DNA of 36,886 nt from a bacterium (GTDB taxonomy: Bacteria; Desulfobacterota; S145-22): positions 1 to 36,886 of the forward strand of contig JALSPC010000109.1 of NCBI GenBank assembly GCA_026986155.1. The letters are read 5' to 3'. Both the position numbers and the translations under genes were made by a program. A model generated the notes under the pieces. That model was not told the DNA's origin, ran no database searches, and was given only the letters and a program-made list of their open reading frames with translations. Of this stretch, positions 5,761-29,714 are shown one piece after another; positions within the stretch are counted from its first letter, which is position 1, and each line of letters opens with the position of its first letter.

Positions 5761-6744
5761 CTATCTCGTGAGTCTGCGCCCCATGCCCGGCCGGGTGTTC
5801 GACGGCAGATTCGAGCCGTGAACCTGGCTATGGCACTGGGTGCATTTGGTTGTCATAACCTGCTGAATGCCATTGACTTTACCGATACCATATCCCGTAT
5901 GTCCCGAGAGTCCGGAATGAAAATGCATGTGATGACACTGAAGGCAGACAAAGGGTTCATTCTGTTTCAAAAGGTTGTTGGCAACGGTTCCATGGGGATT
6001 GTGACAAATGGTGCAATTTTCAACGACGGGGGCGTGTTCGAAAACAAAAGGACCTTCCTTGTCCGCATGACAAGTGAAGCACAGGTCATTTATTCTTTCA
6101 TCCGTCTTGAGCATCCATCGGTTGCTAGCCGTGTGGGGATTGTGACAACTGGTGCAATCCATCTTACCTTCTTTGATGGGATGGTGAGACGGCATATTGG
6201 CTTCTCCCCTTTGTTTCTTGTGGCATCCATAACACAACTCGGGTTCTGATTTGGCCAGAGAAGCTTTGCTTTCTCCCTTATGGATGGTGTGACAATCTGT
6301 GCAGGCGACGTTGGACATGCTGTGCCGGGAGCCCGCCCAATCAAGTGTCTGCCCGGACGTGTGGCACCTGAGACAGATCTCTGATTTTTGGATCGGCGTG
6401 AGTTTTCTGCCCTTGAAACTGATAATTTCAGACGGATCCTCGTCTTCGATATGCTTGCTCGCGGGACCATGACACGCCTCACAGCCGTTGACAACACCCG
6501 ATACTTTTGTTTCGAACCCCTTCACCTTGCCGTGAATGGTCTTTTTAAAGGCTTTGACCGTGTCCTCGTGACAGTCAGCGCAAGCATCGCTACCCGCGTA
6601 GGCCGCCCCACTCGCAACTGCGGGAGTGGCACGATTGACGGGTTCCTCTCGAGCGGTCTTGACAATCCCCCCGGTGCAGGCAGCGAGGAAGACAGCAAAG
6701 ACCGCCAGCCCAACAAATAAAATTGTGATGGTTTTTTCCTTCAC
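5761..6744 (-). CDS. dmsE: Decaheme c-type cytochrome lipoprotein, DmsE/MtrA/PioA type
   Basis: Electron carrier expected inside or at the periplasmic face of the outer-membrane barrel encoded next. Ten CxxCH motifs are present in order: CADCH, CEACH, CLRCH, CTDCH, CYGCH, CTSCH, CFTCH, CTICH, CLQCH, CTQCH, spaced through the whole 327-residue protein as in the DmsE/MtrA family. I chose the GTG start at 6744 because AAAGGAGG stands five bases before it. This gives VKEK, a hydrophobic stretch and a lipobox LAAC with Cys23, so it is a lipoprotein; an ATG ten codons upstream has no comparable ribosome site. No outer-surface multiheme cytochrome or terminal reductase is seen here, so the electron acceptor is unknown. 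CcsB (31436) could mature its hemes. Confidence 0.93.
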
Positions 6745-7109
6745 GCGTTCCTCCTTTCCGGAAGCTTTGTCCACGAGGACAGCTTCCTATTTTATACATA
6801 CACATATAGGCTATTATAGATTTATATTTTGTCAAGCGAAAAAATTAACCTTAAGAACAGAGAACGATACTTGACAATACGTCCACCCAAAACGGGCAAT
6901 GTTGCAACCATTACGATTCTTAAGTTATAAGAATTCTATATGGATAAGATAAGATAAGCTAAGAATATTCCCGCGCAAGTTCTTTTTTATTTCTTTCATC
7001 AGGACGGGATTGACGTATCAGCAACGAAAGAAATGATATTGCAATTATCTTTATATTACGATATTTCATTTATAAATATAGACGCCCCATTGAGGTTTAA
7101 GGAGGAGCG
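6745..7109. other. AT-rich divergent control region between cytochrome operon and ArsP gene
   Basis: 365 bp without a gene. Facing the cytochrome there is a TTGACA at 6835-6830 and a TATAAT at 6818-6813 (minus strand), but they are too close to form one standard promoter, so the exact start is unclear. Facing arsP a possible TTGCAA ... TATTTC pair lies about 60 bp before the gene, and TTTAAGGAGGAGCG is an excellent ribosome site at 7098-7109. The middle holds an inverted repeat and tandem ATAAG units, listed separately. Base composition is far richer in A+T than either neighbouring gene. Confidence 0.6.
6916..6966. promoter_or_regulatory. Inverted repeat plus tandem ATAAG units, probable regulator site
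   Basis: ATTCTTA-AGTTA-TAAGAAT at 6916-6934 is a perfect 7-5-7 inverted repeat. Within ten bases follow three ATAAG units and one CTAAG, ending in another TAAGAAT half-site. The cluster lies midway between two divergent operons and could bind a common dimeric regulator. The cognate protein is not visible. Confidence 0.4.
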
Positions 7110-21696: not shown

Positions 21697-22812
21697 CTAC
21701 CGCTTGGGATAGGAAGGCAAAGGCGCCTTCAGGATGAGCGGCAGGGTCAGGGTGACGGTGGTTCCCTTTCCCTCCTCGCTATCGATCTCGACGCGTCCCT
21801 GCATGTCCCGGATATGCCGGTAAACCAGGGCCAGGCCAAGCCCGATCCGATAGGGCTTGGTGGTGTAGAAGGGGTCCATCACCTTGTCCAACTCCTCGGG
21901 GGGTATCCCGATCCCGTTGTCCTTCACCTTTATCCAGAGGATCCCTTCCTCCGCGTCCAGTCCCGTCAATATCTGGATCCGTCCTTTGCGACCTTCCGGG
22001 ATGGCGTCCACCGCATTTTCGAAGAGGTTCTTGAAAACGTTTTTCAGACCCTGGATACTGGCCCGGATCAAAGGGATCTGGTCGTTTTCGGAGACTTCAA
22101 ACACGACATCCTTGCCCGGGGCCTTCCGGAGGCAGGCCACGAATTCCGTCGCTACCTCCCTGAGCAGCTTGACGAGATCCACGTATTCGTATTCCCCCCT
22201 GGCTGGAATCTCGAACTCCGTCACCTGGTCGATGATACGCTCCAGCCGATTGACCTCACGGATGATTCGATCCACGTATTCCTGGCAGAGCGGGTCGTTC
22301 GGATGTTTCTTTTTGATCCGGTGGGCGAACCCGCCGATCACCGTCAAGGGATTGCGGAACTCGTGGGCGATGCGGTCGGCCAGCCGCCCCAAGGCAGCGA
22401 ATTTTTCGCTCTCCAGGAGCTGGATCTGGAGCTGCCGGATGCTGAGGAGGGAGTAGATCTTGGCGTACAACTCCTCTACGGGAAGAAACCGGGACACGTA
22501 GGCGTCGGCGGCGAGTCCGAAGGCCTCCAGCCTTTCCGCTTTGACGTCCTTCCCGTCCAGGACGAGAATGAGGATGCTTTGGGTCTCTATCTGCCCCTTC
22601 AGAATTTTGCAGATTTCCTGGACATCGATATCGGGAGGGGAATCGTAAAGAATCACCAGGTCGGGGTGCTTCAGGCTCGTCCGGTAGATAATGTCGGCGG
22701 TTCCGCCCTCCACGAGAACCGGAGAAAAGCCGCGCGTTTTCAGGTAATTGTAGAGGCGGCGGGACTCGACGGACTGGTCGAAAGAAAAGAGAATGTTTCT
22801 TCGACGAATCAT
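21697..22812 (-). CDS. Sensor histidine kinase with degenerate N-terminal receiver
   Basis: 371 residues from the ATG at 22812 (a GTG 15 codons upstream is possible; neither has a strong ribosome site). Residues 5-120 resemble a CheY-like receiver, but the phospho-acceptor position is Tyr56 (DLVILYDSPP), only one acidic residue (Asp12) remains in the N-terminal pocket and the conserved Lys is Arg108. The kinase core is intact: H-box IAHEFRNPL (His150), N-box NLFENAVDA, DNGIGIPPEE, FYTTKPYRIGLGLAL. No membrane segment, so it is cytosolic. No response regulator is adjacent; the nearest signalling gene is the divergent HDOD protein. Confidence 0.9.
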   Translation of the reverse strand: MIRRRNILFSFDQSVESRRLYNYLKTRGFSPVLVEGGTADIIYRTSLKHPDLVILYDSPPDIDVQEICKILKGQIETQSILILVLDGKDVKAERLEAFGLAADAYVSRFLPVEELYAKIYSLLSIRQLQIQLLESEKFAALGRLADRIAHEFRNPLTVIGGFAHRIKKKHPNDPLCQEYVDRIIREVNRLERIIDQVTEFEIPARGEYEYVDLVKLLREVATEFVACLRKAPGKDVVFEVSENDQIPLIRASIQGLKNVFKNLFENAVDAIPEGRKGRIQILTGLDAEEGILWIKVKDNGIGIPPEELDKVMDPFYTTKPYRIGLGLALVYRHIRDMQGRVEIDSEEGKGTTVTLTLPLILKAPLPSYPKR

Positions 22813-23062
22813 GGTCCCGGCCGTTTCCCGTTTTGGAACATTGCCTTTTTCTACCACCTTTGCGAGGTAAAATCAAAACAGGAAGGGCAGAAAAACAAGA
22901 CCTCGCTTGTCATTTTTTCCCGGCATTACCCTAAACGTCTTGCAGTTTTGAACGTCCTGTTATACATGAATAAAAAAAGAGAAGGAAGTTTAGTTTATTC
23001 ATAACCATCCGACAAGACTGTTATGGAACGAAGAGGACCTTCCCCACATCGGGGAAGTAAGG

Positions 23063-23542
23063 GTGGTTGTGTCTGAAAGAAGGGTTTGCGCGATATTTCT
23101 CGGGAAGAAGGAGGAAGGAGAAATCGCCGCGTTTACGAGTAAATGTCCCCGAACGACACGGGTCACGAAAGGAAAGAGCACATTGCTTTCATCTGTTTTT
23201 GAATCTTTGCGGAGATACCTCCGGGGGGAGTTGAAATCCTTTGATCTCCCTACTGAATTCCTGTTCGGTTCACCTTTTCAACGAAAGGTATGGAACGCGC
23301 TTAAAACCATCCCTTACGGGAGGTGTGTTAGTTACCAGTGGGTGGCGAAAGAGATTGGACATCCTCGGGCCATGCGCGCCGTTGGCAACGCCGTCGGGAG
23401 CAACCCCCTTCCCATTCTCGTTCCCTGCCACAGGGTCATACGGAAAGATGGAAGCCTTGGAGGTTTCTCCTCGGGCCTTGAAATCAAAAAAGCCCTCCTG
23501 AAGATCGAAGGTTGTTTACAACCCATCAAGGAATCTCCATGA
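23063..23542 (+). CDS. ogt: Methylated-DNA-protein-cysteine methyltransferase
   Basis: Suicide repair protein that takes alkyl groups from O6-alkylguanine. Active-site PCHRV with Cys122, the helix-turn-helix arginine finger region RAMRAVGNA, and GGFSSGLEIKKALLKIEG are intact in 159 residues. The GTG at 23063 is the first standard start, but family-like sequence (LLWNEEDLPHIGEVR) continues upstream to a stop at 22991 without ATG, GTG or TTG. The true start may be non-standard or the N-terminus shortened. Its stop overlaps the HDOD gene (ATGA), linking DNA repair with a signalling protein. Confidence 0.9.
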   Translation: MVVSERRVCAIFLGKKEEGEIAAFTSKCPRTTRVTKGKSTLLSSVFESLRRYLRGELKSFDLPTEFLFGSPFQRKVWNALKTIPYGRCVSYQWVAKEIGHPRAMRAVGNAVGSNPLPILVPCHRVIRKDGSLGGFSSGLEIKKALLKIEGCLQPIKESP

Positions 23543-25563
23543 ATCCCCTCAAGGAAAAACTTCAATCCCTCCTCGATAAAGAGAAAGACACCCCAACGCT
23601 GCCCGAAATCGGCATCCAGGCCATGCAAATTGCCCTGGACGACAGTCTCGCGCAGAAAAAACTCGTTCGTCTCATCACGCGGTATCCCGACATTGCCTCC
23701 CGCGTAATCCATCTCGCGAACTCGCCGCTCTTCGGCCTGTCCGGACGCATTGCCTCCATCGAAAGGGCCGTGAATCTCCTGGGCATCGCCCCTATCCGGA
23801 GCCTTGTTCTAAGCCTGTCCGTTCTTATCGCCATGAACAGACAGAAGAAACAGATGATGACCCCCATTTTCAGGCAGCTTCAAGACAACTCTTTCGCGTG
23901 CGGCATCGGCGCCAGTCTCATCGCGGAATCTTCCGGATATCCCCGGCCGGACGAGGCATTTCTGACGGGCCTTCTCTGTCACATCGGGTACTTCTTCATC
24001 CTGACCCAACTTGACGAAGAATCGCACTTCAATTTGATCGAACAACACCTGAAAAATCCCTTCGATCCCAATCTGGAATCCCGAGAGAAAGAAAGTTTCG
24101 GATTCTCGCACGCCGAATTCGGCAGCCTCATCACGGCCAGGTGGTATCTCCCCAGTCATATCGTTGATTCCTTAAGGTTTCACCACGAGGATTTTCTCCG
24201 CAGCTCTCTGGAACCCAACACCCGAAAACTGATCCACATCATTCAAGGGTCGATTCGGCTCAATCACATCTTCGACGGGGTTGAAGAAAACGAGGAAAGT
24301 AAAGAATTCTTGACATTCGTGGATGAACGTTTGAGCATTTCGCCCCACGAATGCGACCGGATTCTGCTGGAATTCGATCAACATCTTTCCGAGGAAAGCA
24401 GCCTTTTCAAGCTGCCCGTCAAGCCAAGGAAGAGTTACCTCAACATCCTCAGGGAAAGCAACGAAAAGCTCTACGAAATCAGCCTCGATTATCTTCAAAC
24501 TTTGGAAGAAAATAAAAAACTTATCGAGGAGAATGAACGTATCACAAAGATACTTGAGATTCTTTTCAACAACTCTCCCGATGCCATTGTCGCAATAGAC
24601 GGGAGGGGAAGGCCCCTCATGATCAATAAAAGCATCGAGAAACTTGTCGGAATCTCCGCGGATGACTTCCTGTCCGGGGATGAAAACATCCTCGATTATT
24701 ACCCTCCGGGACTGGCTAGAAAGATTATGCGGATTCTCAAGAGTCATCAATACGGCCCGCCCGGTATTATCATGGATTACGAAACTTGTGTCCATGATCG
24801 CGATGGCAACGAAATTCCCGTGAGTTTCTCCGGCGCCCTTGTCGAGGAAGACGGAAAAGTTAAAATGACCATTGGGTTTCTCCGTGACATCAGGAAACGC
24901 AAGGCCATTCAGAAAGAATTGATAAATGCGCGGCGTTACTTCGATCTCATTTTCAACACCATCCCCGATGGTATCCGTGTCGTGGGTCATGATTTGACCG
25001 TTACGTTCGAAAACAAAAAACTCAAGGAAATGTTGGGAGAAGGGCTCGGGAAAAAATGTTATGAAACACATTTTCATGCGAATAAACCAAGGTCCAGGGT
25101 CTGTGAGGATTGCTGGCTGCCCATGGGAAAGACGGGACAGCCACAGACAAAAGAATACACTTCCAACGACGGAAAAACCTATTTGATTTCTTCATCAATC
25201 CTTGAAATGGAAGGACAGCCGCCGGCATCCGTCCAGGTCATCAACGACATCACAATGTTCAAGGAACAAAAACGCATCGAAACGGAACAACAAAAATTAA
25301 AGGCGGTCATGGAACTGGCGGGAGCCACCGCGCACGAGCTTAATCAACCCCTCACGGCCATCACCATGGGATTGGAGCTTGTTTCCAGGCAGCACCGGAA
25401 ACACCGTTCCGTTCCGGACGAAGTCATCAAGAACATCCTCGAAAACGTGGAAAAAATGAGCAAAATCATCAATCGCCTCTCAAAAATCACGCGCTATGAA
25501 ACACGAAGCTATATAAGCGCCATGAAGATCCTGGACATCGACGGTTCAAGCGAAAATTCCTAA
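23539..25563 (+). CDS. HDOD-PAS-PAS-DHp signalling protein lacking a kinase ATPase domain
   Basis: 674 residues; ATG at 23539 has AAGGA before it. Order: HDOD domain (about 20-215; LPEIGIQAMQIALDD, RVIHLANSPLFGLSGRIASI), helical linker with a coiled coil near 310-335, PAS1 (about 330-450; NSPDAIVAIDGRGRPLMINK), PAS2 (about 455-570; FNTIPDGIRVVGHDLTVTFE) with a Cys cluster KKCYE...VCEDC, then a histidine-kinase dimerisation helix pair with an H-box AGATAHELNQPLTAIT. The gene ends about 65 residues after the H-box (ITRYETRSYISAMKILDIDG), with no N, G1 or G2 boxes. The His may be phosphorylated by another kinase, or the DHp may serve only for dimerisation. Confidence 0.9.
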   Translation: MNPLKEKLQSLLDKEKDTPTLPEIGIQAMQIALDDSLAQKKLVRLITRYPDIASRVIHLANSPLFGLSGRIASIERAVNLLGIAPIRSLVLSLSVLIAMNRQKKQMMTPIFRQLQDNSFACGIGASLIAESSGYPRPDEAFLTGLLCHIGYFFILTQLDEESHFNLIEQHLKNPFDPNLESREKESFGFSHAEFGSLITARWYLPSHIVDSLRFHHEDFLRSSLEPNTRKLIHIIQGSIRLNHIFDGVEENEESKEFLTFVDERLSISPHECDRILLEFDQHLSEESSLFKLPVKPRKSYLNILRESNEKLYEISLDYLQTLEENKKLIEENERITKILEILFNNSPDAIVAIDGRGRPLMINKSIEKLVGISADDFLSGDENILDYYPPGLARKIMRILKSHQYGPPGIIMDYETCVHDRDGNEIPVSFSGALVEEDGKVKMTIGFLRDIRKRKAIQKELINARRYFDLIFNTIPDGIRVVGHDLTVTFENKKLKEMLGEGLGKKCYETHFHANKPRSRVCEDCWLPMGKTGQPQTKEYTSNDGKTYLISSSILEMEGQPPASVQVINDITMFKEQKRIETEQQKLKAVMELAGATAHELNQPLTAITMGLELVSRQHRKHRSVPDEVIKNILENVEKMSKIINRLSKITRYETRSYISAMKILDIDGSSENS

Positions 25564-25582
25564 TGGATAGAAACAATTTAAA

Positions 25583-26827
25583 ATGACAAGTCAATTCGAA
25601 AACTTTTTTCACGTCATATCCAGGGAGGCGGCGGAAAAAACCATCCAGATCCATCTAGCCCCTCTCGGAAAAGAGACGGTTTCCCTGTCGAACGCCCTCG
25701 ACAGGATCTCCGCCGAGTCCCTGACCGCGCCGGAATCCCTGCCTCCCTTCGCCCGTTCCACAGTGGACGGATTCGCCGTGAAAAGCCAGGATACCTTCGG
25801 CGCATCGGAGGGATTTCCCGTGACACTCGAGGTGGCGGGGGTAATCTCCATCGGAACCCTTCCGGAGGCATCGCTGAAAAGGGGAAAAGCCATGGCTATT
25901 CCCACGGGAGGCGCTCTTCCCGAAGGGGCCGACGCCGTGGTCATGGTGGAGCACACCGAGTCCCCCGATCCCGCTTTCGTGGAGATCTACCGCCCGGTCT
26001 CCCCGTTCGAGAACGTCGTCCGTGCGGGAGAAGACATCGAAAAGGGCCGTCCCGTCCTCGAAAGGGGGCGCAAGATCCGGCCGCAGGAATTGGGGCTCCT
26101 GGCCGCCCTGGGCATCACCCGGGTTTCCGTGACGCGGAAACCTGTCGTGGGCATCATCTCCTCGGGCAACGAAGTGGTCTCTCCCGAGCGGGTCCCCGGT
26201 CCGGGACAGATCCGGGACATCAACCGTTTCACTCTCCAGGGACTCATCGCGCGAAGCGGCGGCGAGGCCCGGTTCATCGGTCTTACGCCCGACGACGAAG
26301 CCACCCTGAAAGACGCCTGTGAGAGGGGCCTCGCGTCGTGCGACCTCCTTCTCCTGTCGGGGGGAAGCTCCGTGGGGACCCGGGACCTGACCCTGAAGGT
26401 TCTCGAAGAATTCGGCGGTTTCGAGCTTCTCGCTCACGGAATCGCGGTAAGCCCGGGGAAACCGACCATCATCGCCAGGATCGGGGGAAAAATGATTTTC
26501 GGGCTGCCCGGCCACCCCGTTTCCACCTGGGTCATCGCCCTTCTGTTCGTCACACGCGCCATCCAGACCCTCCTCGGGGGCCGCGAGAACTACGCTCTCG
26601 CCTGGGACACGGCCGTCGTTGACGGAAACATCCCTTCCGCGCAGGGTCGTGAGGATTTCATCCGGGCGAAGGTGACAGGGGTCGGGAGAGCGGCCACCGC
26701 CTTTCCCATCTTCAGCAAATCCGGCGTCATCTCCTCGCTGGCCGCCGCCAACGCCCTCATCCGGATCCCCCTGAATTCCGAGGGGGTTTACAAGGGCGAA
26801 GAAGTCGCTATACTAAGACTCCCATGA
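25583..26827 (+). CDS. moeA: Molybdopterin molybdenumtransferase MoeA
   Basis: Inserts molybdate into adenylylated molybdopterin, last step of Moco synthesis. 414 residues with the usual domain order: STVDGFAVKSQD, PTGGALPEGADAVVMVEHTE, GNEVVSPERVPGPGQIRDIN, and the MogA-like core LLLLSGGSSVGTRDLTLKVL with LPGHPVSTWV. It lies 19 bp behind the HDOD gene and overlaps the second moeA by four bases. The ribosome site is weak (GGATAG). Confidence 0.95.
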   Translation: MTSQFENFFHVISREAAEKTIQIHLAPLGKETVSLSNALDRISAESLTAPESLPPFARSTVDGFAVKSQDTFGASEGFPVTLEVAGVISIGTLPEASLKRGKAMAIPTGGALPEGADAVVMVEHTESPDPAFVEIYRPVSPFENVVRAGEDIEKGRPVLERGRKIRPQELGLLAALGITRVSVTRKPVVGIISSGNEVVSPERVPGPGQIRDINRFTLQGLIARSGGEARFIGLTPDDEATLKDACERGLASCDLLLLSGGSSVGTRDLTLKVLEEFGGFELLAHGIAVSPGKPTIIARIGGKMIFGLPGHPVSTWVIALLFVTRAIQTLLGGRENYALAWDTAVVDGNIPSAQGREDFIRAKVTGVGRAATAFPIFSKSGVISSLAAANALIRIPLNSEGVYKGEEVAILRLP

Positions 26828-28734
26828 AACGATCCGTCTATCTACGTCTGACACCGCTCCCGGAAGCGCGGGAGCGGGTACTGGCCTCTATCGAATCCCT
26901 GAATACCCCCGATCCAGAGGTGGTTCCGGCCGCCGAGGCGGAAGGACGCGTCGCGGCGGAAGGTGTCTTCGCCCGCCGGTCCATCCCCCACTACGCGGCG
27001 GCGGCCATGGACGGCGTGGCCGTTGACGCGCGGGTCACCTACGGGGCGTCCGACGCCGCCCCCGTGACCTTGAAGGTGGGAGAAACGGCCTTCTGGGTCA
27101 ACACGGGGGCCCCCATGCCCCAAGACACCAACGCCGTCATCATGGTGGAATACCTCCTCGAAACGGGGCCCGGCACCCTGGAGATCCGCCAGGCCGCCCA
27201 TCCGTGGCAGCACGTCCGTCCCGTGGGGGAAGACATCATCCGGGGAGATCTCCTTCTCCTCCCCGGCCAGGTCATCGCGCCGGCGGACGTGGCGGTCCTG
27301 CTCAACGGGGGAATCTTCGAGGTTAGGGTTCGGCCGCGGCCCCGGATCGCCATCCTTCCCACTGGCTCGGAACTGGTTCCCCCCGAGACGACACCCAAGT
27401 CAGGACAGGTCATTGAGTCCAACAGCCGGATGATGGCGGCCTACGCGCGGCGGGACGGGGCCGTTGCCGACATCCTGCCGGCGTGTCCGGACGAGAAGGT
27501 GTCCCTTATGAACGCGCTGAACGAGGCCGCCGGGAAACACGATATTGTTTTCGTCCTGTCCGGCTCCTCCGCCGGCGCCAGGGACTTTACGCAAGCTGTT
27601 CTGGAAGTATCGGGGGAGATCCTTGTCCACGGCATCGCCATGATGCCGGGAAAGCCGGCCCTCTATGGAATCGTCGAACAAAAACCGGTCTTCGGCATCC
27701 CCGGCTATCCCACCTCCGCGGCCCTTTACTACGAAGAGATCATCTCCCCGTTCATCCGCGCCATCACCGGGCTTTCCCCCGTCAAAGCGCCCACACTGAC
27801 GGCGACCCTCTTCCGGAAGGTCCCGTCGAAGCTGGGGCAGGAGGAGTTCATACGGGTCCGGCTGGGAAAGGTGGGTGAGACTTGGATCGCCGTTCCCCTG
27901 GCCCGGGGCGCGGGCATTCTGAAAAGCCTCAGCGAGGCCGACGGGATCGTCCGAATCCCCCTGGCGTCGGAGGGCGCGTCGGAGGCGACCCCAGTGACCG
28001 TCCACCTGCGCAGGGAACCCTCCACCCTGGCGGGGCAAATCGTCTTCATCGGAAGCCACGACCTGAGCCTGGACCACCTCAACGTCCTGTTGGCTAAACG
28101 ATCGACGGGGGTCTCCCTTGCCATCGGCGCCGTGGGAAGCCTGGGCGGGCTCTTCGCCCTGAAGGGCGGCAAGGCGCACCTGACGGCCGTCCACCTCCTC
28201 GATCCCAAGTCCCAAACCTACAACCTCCCCTACGTGAGAAAATACCTGGCCGGGCGGCAGGTCCGCATCGTACGCCTCCTCAAACGCACCCAAGGCCTGA
28301 TGGTGCAAAAAGGCAATCCCAAGGGCATCAACACCATCGGGGACCTCGCGCGGAACGACGTCCAGTTCGTAAACCGCCAGCGGGGAGCGGGAACCCGTGT
28401 CCTTCTTGACTTCCTCCTGGGGCAAGCGGGCATTTCGCCCGACGACGTGTCCGGATACGCCAACGAGGTGGCCACCCACGCCATGGCGGCGGCGGAGATC
28501 CAGGGGGGCATGGCCGACTGTGGCCTGGGTATCCAGGCGGCGGCGCGGGCGCTGGACCTCGATTTCATCCCCCTGACCGAGGAACCCTACGACTTGGTGA
28601 TACCGGAGGAATTCTTCTTTGACTGGAGAATCCAGACCATGCTCGAAACCATCCGCTCGGAGACCTTCAGGGAATCAGTGCGCGGCCTCGGCGGATACGA
28701 CCCCGCGGAGAGCGGAACCGAGTTACCGTCATGA
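26824..28734 (+). CDS. moeA2: MoeA fused to a periplasmic-binding-protein-like domain
   Basis: 636 residues. Residues 1 to about 395 are a second MoeA (AAAMDGVAVDARV, NTGAPMPQDTNAVIMVEYL, LSGSSAGARDFTQAVLEV, FGIPGYPTSAALYY). Residues about 400-620 form a PBP-like domain (FIGSHDLSLDHLNVLLA, VNRQRGAGTRVLLDFLLGQ, HAMAAAEIQGGMADCGLGIQ) of the type also found in MoeA/LysR-like molybdate proteins. The PBP half has no signal peptide, so it works in the cytosol, probably as a molybdate or tungstate sensor or delivery domain. A second MoeA could serve tungsten rather than molybdenum. ATGA overlaps join it to both neighbours. Confidence 0.93.
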   Translation: MKRSVYLRLTPLPEARERVLASIESLNTPDPEVVPAAEAEGRVAAEGVFARRSIPHYAAAAMDGVAVDARVTYGASDAAPVTLKVGETAFWVNTGAPMPQDTNAVIMVEYLLETGPGTLEIRQAAHPWQHVRPVGEDIIRGDLLLLPGQVIAPADVAVLLNGGIFEVRVRPRPRIAILPTGSELVPPETTPKSGQVIESNSRMMAAYARRDGAVADILPACPDEKVSLMNALNEAAGKHDIVFVLSGSSAGARDFTQAVLEVSGEILVHGIAMMPGKPALYGIVEQKPVFGIPGYPTSAALYYEEIISPFIRAITGLSPVKAPTLTATLFRKVPSKLGQEEFIRVRLGKVGETWIAVPLARGAGILKSLSEADGIVRIPLASEGASEATPVTVHLRREPSTLAGQIVFIGSHDLSLDHLNVLLAKRSTGVSLAIGAVGSLGGLFALKGGKAHLTAVHLLDPKSQTYNLPYVRKYLAGRQVRIVRLLKRTQGLMVQKGNPKGINTIGDLARNDVQFVNRQRGAGTRVLLDFLLGQAGISPDDVSGYANEVATHAMAAAEIQGGMADCGLGIQAAARALDLDFIPLTEEPYDLVIPEEFFFDWRIQTMLETIRSETFRESVRGLGGYDPAESGTELPS

Positions 28735-29714
28735 AACCGGTCTTGAAAGACAGATTCGGCCGTGTCATCGATTATCTCCGCATCTCCATCACCGACCACT
28801 GCAACCTGCGATGTCTCTACTGTGTGACGGACGACATCGCGTGGGTGCCCCACGAGGAGATCCTGCGTTTCGAAGAGATCGCCACCATTGTCTCGGCCTT
28901 CGTCGAGGAAGGCATCCGCAAGATTCGCGTCACGGGGGGGGAACCCCTCATGCGCAAGGGGCTGCCCGATTTCATCGCTGGTCTCTCCCGGATTGACGGC
29001 ATCGACGACCTGAGCCTGACGACCAACGGGGTCCTTTTGAAACGGTTCGCCGGCGAGTTGAAAGAGGCCGGCCTTAAGCGCATCAACGTGAGCCTCGACA
29101 CCCTGAAACCGGACCTCTACAAGGCCATTACCGGCAGGGATTTCTTCCGTCAGGTGTGGGAAGGCATTGAAATGGCCCGGACGGTGGGACTTTCCCCCGT
29201 GAAAATCAACGTGGTGGCCATGAAGGAATACAACGAGTCCGAGATACTTGACTTCGCGCGGCTCACCCTCAGGAAACCCTACGTGGTCCGGTTCATCGAG
29301 TACATGCCCCTCAACGAGACGTGGGACAGCCACAACTTTCTCAGCGTGGACGACATCAAGGCGAAGATAGAATCGGAATTTCCCCTGGTACCCATCGACG
29401 GAACCCACAACAATGGGCCCGCCCGTGTCTTCAAGATCCCCGGTGGGAAGGGCGAGATTGGACTGATCAGCCCTCTGAGCAACCATTTCTGCGGCGCGTG
29501 CAACCGGCTGAGGCTCACCTCCGACGGTCACCTCCGCCCCTGCCTCTTCTCCAACACCGAGGTGGACATCAAGACGCCCCTCCGCGCGGGGGCCGACACG
29601 ACGGTACTCAAAAAAATCCTTCATGAAACCCTTTCATTGAAACCCAAGCGTCACCACATGCAGTCGGTCTCCGCGCCCAAGTGCCATCGGGGCATGTGGA
29701 GCATCGGCGGGTAG
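28731..29714 (+). CDS. moaA: GTP 3',8-cyclase MoaA (radical SAM)
   Basis: First step of Moco synthesis, rearranging GTP with S-adenosylmethionine. The radical-SAM cluster is Cys24, Cys28, Cys31 (DHCNLRCLYC); the second 4Fe-4S cluster is Cys254, Cys257, Cys271 (FCGACNRLRL...RPCLF). The C-terminus ends in SIGG, the conserved double glycine needed for activity. 327 residues; ATG overlaps the preceding stop by four bases. Confidence 0.97.
   Translation: MKPVLKDRFGRVIDYLRISITDHCNLRCLYCVTDDIAWVPHEEILRFEEIATIVSAFVEEGIRKIRVTGGEPLMRKGLPDFIAGLSRIDGIDDLSLTTNGVLLKRFAGELKEAGLKRINVSLDTLKPDLYKAITGRDFFRQVWEGIEMARTVGLSPVKINVVAMKEYNESEILDFARLTLRKPYVVRFIEYMPLNETWDSHNFLSVDDIKAKIESEFPLVPIDGTHNNGPARVFKIPGGKGEIGLISPLSNHFCGACNRLRLTSDGHLRPCLFSNTEVDIKTPLRAGADTTVLKKILHETLSLKPKRHHMQSVSAPKCHRGMWSIGG

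Follow-up and report, generated by a model that had tools for sequence, protein, structure and literature searches.

Genes and domains at the locus

We analyzed a 36,886-nt stretch of a Desulfobacterota genome (contig JALSPC010000109.1 of assembly GCA_026986155.1, GTDB lineage S145-22), referred to here as the window. On its forward strand, an open reading frame that runs from the ATG at 23539 to the stop at 25563 encodes a 674-residue protein of HDOD-PAS-PAS-HisKA architecture without a HATPase domain, as identified from Pfam, NCBIfam, and orthologues. The HDOD domain occupies residues 19 to 217 (23593 to 24189; PF08668, E value = 2.2 × 10−40), and the first PAS domain occupies residues 343 to 455 (24565 to 24903; PF08448, E value = 8.9 × 10−11). 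The second PAS domain (residues ~466 to 571; 24934 to 25251), which holds C507, C522, and C525, was seen by the NCBIfam sensory_box model alone, in two stretches, and not by Pfam; its limits are rough estimates, for which a low-confidence full-length structural model (mean pLDDT 56, pTM 0.27) served and for which alone it was used. The HisKA (DHp) domain (residues 592 to 652; 25312 to 25494) contains H599 in the H-box HELNQPL and scored 36.5 bits against a gathering cutoff of 26.9 (PF00512, E value = 5.2 × 10−9); its predicted structure, of high confidence (mean pLDDT 82.8), is a hairpin of two helices. Residues 653 to 674 (25495 to 25560) form a C-terminal tail that replaces the ATPase domain and that, according to an alignment of 63 sequences, defines the class of proteins described below. 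In the monomer DHp model this tail had no confident fold.

The original prediction, made from the nucleotides and their translations, was that a complete HELNQPL box is followed by only about 65 residues, a stop, and a closely spaced next gene, with no frame holding N or G boxes behind it. The H-box spans residues 599 to 605, the stop comes 69 residues later (76 from the His), and moeA begins 20 nt on, as predicted in essence. Pfam found no HATPase_c in the protein, which is thus not a complete sensor histidine kinase. Searching all six frames of the genome for HATPase_c gave 30 matches, and the sole one on this contig (21736 to 22053) lies in a neighboring kinase, so that no frame behind the H-box encodes an ATPase, again in agreement with the prediction.

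The start of the gene is overlapped by 4 nt by the stop of an O6-methylguanine-DNA methyltransferase-like gene (MGMT, 23063 to 23542, forward strand; PF01035, E value = 1.3 × 10−35), and on its 3′ side lies moeA (25583 to 26827, forward strand), a gene order repeated in the orthologous loci, followed by a moeA/PBP fusion and then moaA. From 23063 to 29714 these five genes are codirectional, several joints overlap by 4 nt, and the signaling gene sits within a molybdenum-cofactor operon. On the reverse strand, 0.7 kb away, is a complete histidine kinase (21697 to 22857; pseudo-receiver, HisKA, and HATPase_c, from Pfam, a receiver profile, and orthologues), a candidate partner. The coordinates first given for it, 21697 to 22812, need correction, since the open reading frame from the first possible start is 21697 to 22857 and 22812 would be an internal start.

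Elsewhere in the genome, 28 HisKA matches were found, and three have no HATPase in the same frame: the protein described here, C144:8090-8278, which is 170 bases from a contig end, and C126:9512-9679. The last belongs to a 236-residue HisKA protein (L159:3036-3746) with an ATPase-sized C-terminal part unmatched by the HATPase profile, possibly a Spo0B/ChpT-like protein.

The ending is shared by orthologues

The family comprises six genomes, five besides the source genome. Four of these five (G002 to G005) have an orthologue that ends at the same place, with the tail ETRxYxxxMKILD, and all family orthologues stop ~76 residues past the H-box His. Identity over the whole length is 64% in G005 and 62% in G003; the G002 orthologue is split over two contig pieces and that of G004 consists of PAS-PAS-HisKA only, with the HDOD domain missing, both with the same end. 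A moeA-like gene then follows in all four, recognized from sequence in G002 and G004 and from its position and length in G003 and G005 (cut by the contig end in G005). The remaining genome, G001, is of the same genus and is without the gene: in its contig stretch L138, 16 nt separate the end of MGMT (11106) from the start of moeA (11122), and although a run of N lies within the MGMT gene, the MGMT-moeA junction is free of N. Because G001 and G004 are metagenome-assembled genomes, absence could reflect incompleteness; in G001, MGMT and moeA are contiguous. The missing gene in G001 and the lost HDOD domain in G004 indicate that the gene is not essential.

A truncation or frameshift is ruled out by the orthologues that share the ending, and the ATPase-less ending is, judged from these comparisons, natural rather than a recent truncation. 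The original prediction had proposed a search for the same C-terminal ending in other genomes, and this search points to a natural domain end in 4/5 other family genomes and in a wider class. Homologues of the HDOD-PAS-PAS-HisKA architecture that run into a HATPase_c domain, named there as the sign of a truncation, were sought and none was found.

A class of DHp proteins with a conserved tail

We defined the class by a HisKA domain, a stop within ~70 to 200 residues of the His, no HATPase, a tail of the form YxTxxYx(4-5)IxD, and a DHp domain on the tail side of a phylogenetic tree. The protein described here has 76 residues to the stop, no HATPase, and Y653, T655, Y658, I664, and D666 in the tail, and its own DHp (tree row T_L014) falls on the tail side. 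Profile A3, built from the final 91 residues, matched in 54 of 297 Desulfobacterota genomes at an E value of ≤1 × 10−14. From its list, which held 59 places outside the family, 25 were fetched (L025 to L049): the strict tail motif was present in 22, two (L042 and L047) had a looser motif, and one (L049) was a fusion.

A scan of named genomes with a DHp alignment yielded 365 confirmed relatives, of which 80 loci were kept; most of these carried the label Myxococcota or Deltaproteobacteria, and Nitrospirae and Anaerolineae were represented by single records. The same kind of scan with the full HDOD-PAS-PAS-HisKA protein as the query gave no matches in the named genomes. In the phylum of Sorangium, profile A5 matched 36 of 112 genomes at an E value of ≤1 × 10−20.

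We scanned 66 class members, hand-picked from tail-bearing open reading frames with near-copies left out, against Pfam. HisKA was found in 66/66, HATPase_c in 0/66, Response_reg in 36/66, and HDOD in 3/66; the protein described here is among the 30 without a receiver by this measure. Where tail proteins carry receivers, 46/60 of these retain the D, T/S, and K residues. In the 63-sequence class alignment, the invariant columns include H25, E26, Q29, and P30 in the H-box and Y79, T81, Y84, and D92 in the tail, the latter corresponding to Y653, T655, Y658, and D666. There thus appears, from these alignments, to be a class of DHp proteins without a catalytic ATPase (CA) domain that carry the short conserved tail YxTxxYx(4-5)IxD in its place.

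The tail and the ATPase domain exclude each other in loci drawn by the H-box

The class profile includes the tail and so favors tails, and loci were therefore also drawn by the H-box alone. The DNA pattern for HELNQPLT matched 35 times across 34 of 297 genomes, and 30 loci were fetched. Twelve had a tail and no HATPase, 15 had a HATPase and no tail, three had neither, and none had both (Fisher test, P value = 1 × 10−5), a value to be read with the loci not being independent, because 5 of the 12 tail loci are the family's own genes; without these five, the counts are 7, 15, and 3 for tail, HATPase, and neither. The three loci with neither are L183, L184, and L186, the last of which ends 31 residues on.

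An earlier DHp tree had compared mainly partner kinases and was repeated with HELNQPL kinases. In the repeated tree, all 47 complete-kinase rows lay on one side of a branch with 100/99 support, and all 47 tail rows lay on the other, together with L183 and L184, whose DHp domains nest among the tail-type ones; the tree (96 domains, 83 columns, tail columns omitted) is unrooted and was built after thinning of its rows by identity, and its bootstrap had yet to converge. A profile-profile alignment of the class against complete kinases covered columns 16 to 88 and stopped short of the tail, and a profile search of the PDB entered the tail for one kinase, 4jas (profile positions 17 to 92 on chain residues 20 to 97). 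From the resemblance of KILDID in the tail to the ..VDL.. pattern of kinases, the tail may be a remnant of the DHp-CA linker plus the first CA strand.

Kinases and receivers near class members

A complete kinase was present at 59 of the 80 loci from the named-genome scan. In 58 it was the next gene after the tail gene, in the same orientation, and in L115 it was divergent; these 58 pairs are not independent and mostly represent a single inherited operon of Myxococcota. Five of the remaining loci had <800 nt of downstream sequence, and 16 had room yet no complete kinase. In Sorangium (L170), the tail gene and the next-gene kinase overlap by 4 nt. A REC-GAF-PAS-DHp-tail protein paired with such a kinase is found in Sorangium cellulosum So0157-2 (L170/L092) and in Polyangium fumosum DSM 14668 (L057). 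At L049 (742 to 2592, reverse strand), a single chain joins a PAS domain to a tail-type DHp and then to another DHp, complete with HATPase, and this protein is a fusion of two genes that adjoin in Myxococcota.

Receivers were found in other arrangements. At L142:5095-7096, a REC-DHp-tail protein (H-box HNLNQPL), a REC-GGDEF protein, and a lone REC stand in a row, a candidate relay to c-di-GMP; at L144, a PAS-PAS-DHp-tail gene is followed by a single receiver gene. L183:724-2652 and L184:856-2631 each encode REC-DHp-REC-GGDEF in one chain, with no tail and no HATPase. By eye, the phospho-Asp site in the second receiver of each is occupied by S or N, and since the Asp is seemingly lost from this C-terminal receiver, conformational signaling is possible.

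Among 19 stretches from Desulfobacterota, 202 kb in total, three held complete kinases (five genes, three of them in L145), against ~2.3 kinase genes expected from the density in the source genome, and a separate receiver gene was present in 4 of the 19. Kinase proximity to the Desulfobacterota class members is hardly above chance, and these members are mostly alone.

Proposed role of the protein

In four HisKA kinases (CrdS, HK1190, HK4262, and HK853), kinase but not phosphatase activity depends on the acid adjoining the His, and phosphatase but not kinase activity depends on T or N at position +4 (PMC3510030). H599 and E600 are kept in 66/66 aligned members, a figure biased for the E in that 47 of those rows came from a scan for which AHELNQ was part of the key. 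The residue at +4 is Q in 66/66 and T in L049; the Q makes phosphatase the least likely role and trans-phosphorylation plausible. Two members found by profile, L027 and L046, have HNLNQPL, with N at +1, and look, from this residue, more like receiver-fed carriers; L027 adjoins the REC-GGDEF gene at L142.

We propose, with a probability of about one in two, that the protein is a sensor-gated phospho-His carrier of a CA-less lineage that is charged by another protein and delivers to receivers. HDOD-PAS-PAS would form a cytoplasmic input joined to a dimerizing DHp domain with no ATPase of its own. Another protein, either a complete kinase in trans or a receiver already phosphorylated, would phosphorylate H599; the recipient of the phosphoryl group from H599 would be a receiver elsewhere in the cell, and the PAS domains would set the timing of the transfer. 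From the conserved His onward, that is, for the phosphorylation of H599, its source, and its target, we infer these events. Against this reading stand the 30/66 members without a receiver by Pfam, the mostly solitary Desulfobacterota members, and G001, which does without the gene. More tentatively, and with somewhat less confidence, we suggest that the tail is a functional replacement of the ATPase domain, used for docking or gating, and that the class is an old, separate DHp lineage of several phyla, phosphorylated by others and relaying to receivers such as REC-GGDEF. If true, bacteria would have a third type of phospho-His module in addition to Hpt and Spo0B/ChpT/PhyT.

The DHp domain could instead carry no phosphate and act as a regulator, altering the activity of a complete kinase by heterodimerization or that of a receiver by binding. 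RetS and DivL, which retain whole kinase cores, differ from the tail class in that its ATPase is absent. RetS-GacS and DivL-CckA are precedents, in which a kinase-like partner modulates a complete kinase (PMC12189002). The linkage to kinases fits such a regulator, the conserved tail could be its docking element, and the REC-DHp-REC-GGDEF proteins whose second receiver has seemingly lost its Asp are consistent with it; docking alone, however, needs neither an invariant His nor a nearly invariant acid, and we consider this reading rather unlikely.

A split kinase, in which the product of 21697 to 22857 phosphorylates H599 in trans, is less probable still. The kinase lies 0.7 kb away and is the same neighbor in G002, G003, and G005, kinase linkage is seen at the level of the class, and the acid at +1 is retained. 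Orthologues of this kinase occur in G001 (83% identity), G002, G003, and G005. None was found in G004, where the best match was 33% and a heptosyltransferase-like gene occupies its position. G001 thus keeps only the kinase and G004 only the orthologue of the HDOD-PAS-PAS-HisKA gene, so the two genes are not retained together, and this mixed presence makes the kinase a frequent neighbor and not an obligate partner; near-chance kinase proximity in the Desulfobacterota argues in the same direction. The general part of the original prediction, cooperation with a separate complete kinase, remains plausible for the class (58/80 next-gene pairs and the L049 fusion), whereas the kinase that it named is disfavored by the G001/G004 mismatch, by its pseudo-receiver, and by the near-chance proximity. 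The N terminus of this kinase is matched by a receiver profile, with no receiver called there by Pfam, and in the family sequences the phospho-Asp is replaced by Y or F, the T by D, and the K by R; by these residues, it is a pseudo-receiver conserved in the family.

DHp domains in HisKA proteins are capable of phosphatase activity, and HELNQP kinases such as FixL may still be phosphatases. A role in which the DHp domain dephosphorylates the receiver of a response regulator could draw on this capacity (PMC3510030), but the Q at +4, where the tested kinases require T or N for phosphatase activity (PMC3510030), makes it very doubtful. A recent truncation or decaying pseudogene, to which the missing gene of G001 and the missing HDOD part of G004 might point, is scarcely credible given that G003 and G005 have intact full-length orthologues at 62 to 64% identity, that the copies in G002 and G004 end alike, and that an old class has the same tail.

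Relation to known systems

Spo0B keeps a degenerate C-terminal ATPase-like domain. ChpT and PhyT likewise keep one (PMC5898713 and PMC3433190), whereas the tail class has none: a 22-residue tail stands here, and with only 69 residues past the H-box a domain of the Spo0B/ChpT/PhyT type was not found. All three resemble the proposed carrier in having a DHp hairpin whose phospho-His relays phosphate without ATP, and they are described as phosphotransferases probably derived from kinases (PMC5898713 and PMC3433190). The class profile matched 23 PDB chains, among which no chain named Spo0B or ChpT was present; the matches were kinases, LvrB and FixL chimeras being the best. FixL-type kinases share the H-box HELNQPLT and PAS inputs with the protein described here; the HELNQPL kinases differ in having HATPase_c and no tail (15/15) and in falling on the opposite side of the tree.

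The P2CS census of incomplete histidine kinases and phosphotransfer proteins (PMC3018481) counts HisKA without HATPase as a category. That category, however, is a census bin without a defining sequence, and the tail class is marked by a tail of its own and by a separate side of the tree. No description of the tail class was found in the open-licence literature, including PMC3018481, PMC5898713, PMC3433190, PMC12632262, PMC5108060, PMC12189002, and PMC3510030, and this is weak evidence that the class is undescribed. HisKA proteins that lack an ATPase are commonly classed as incomplete or broken kinases; a class defined by sequence lets them be recognized and their partners predicted, and among the orphan "incomplete kinases" of Desulfobacterota and Myxococcota some may be functional relay components. 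The tail class appears to consist of natural, widespread, and little-described relay proteins and not of broken kinases.

Cysteines of the second PAS domain and other observations

The second PAS domain had been credited with a CX17CX2C-like cysteine set that might sense redox or metal. The cysteines are there, but the spacing is CX14CX2C, with 17 residues between the first and the last; C507, C522, and C525 are invariant in 5/5 family sequences. A similar set, CX10CX2C, occurs in a PAS domain of L007, a complete kinase from the same genome. The cysteines are therefore not special to the HDOD-PAS-PAS-HisKA protein, although they may still sense redox or metal. Also in this genome, an HDOD relative at L003:1501-2529 carries one internal TAA. 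In the window, a reverse-strand open reading frame at 5764 to 6786 has the cysteine-histidine motifs RCHTSG and CTDCH and is cytochrome-like.
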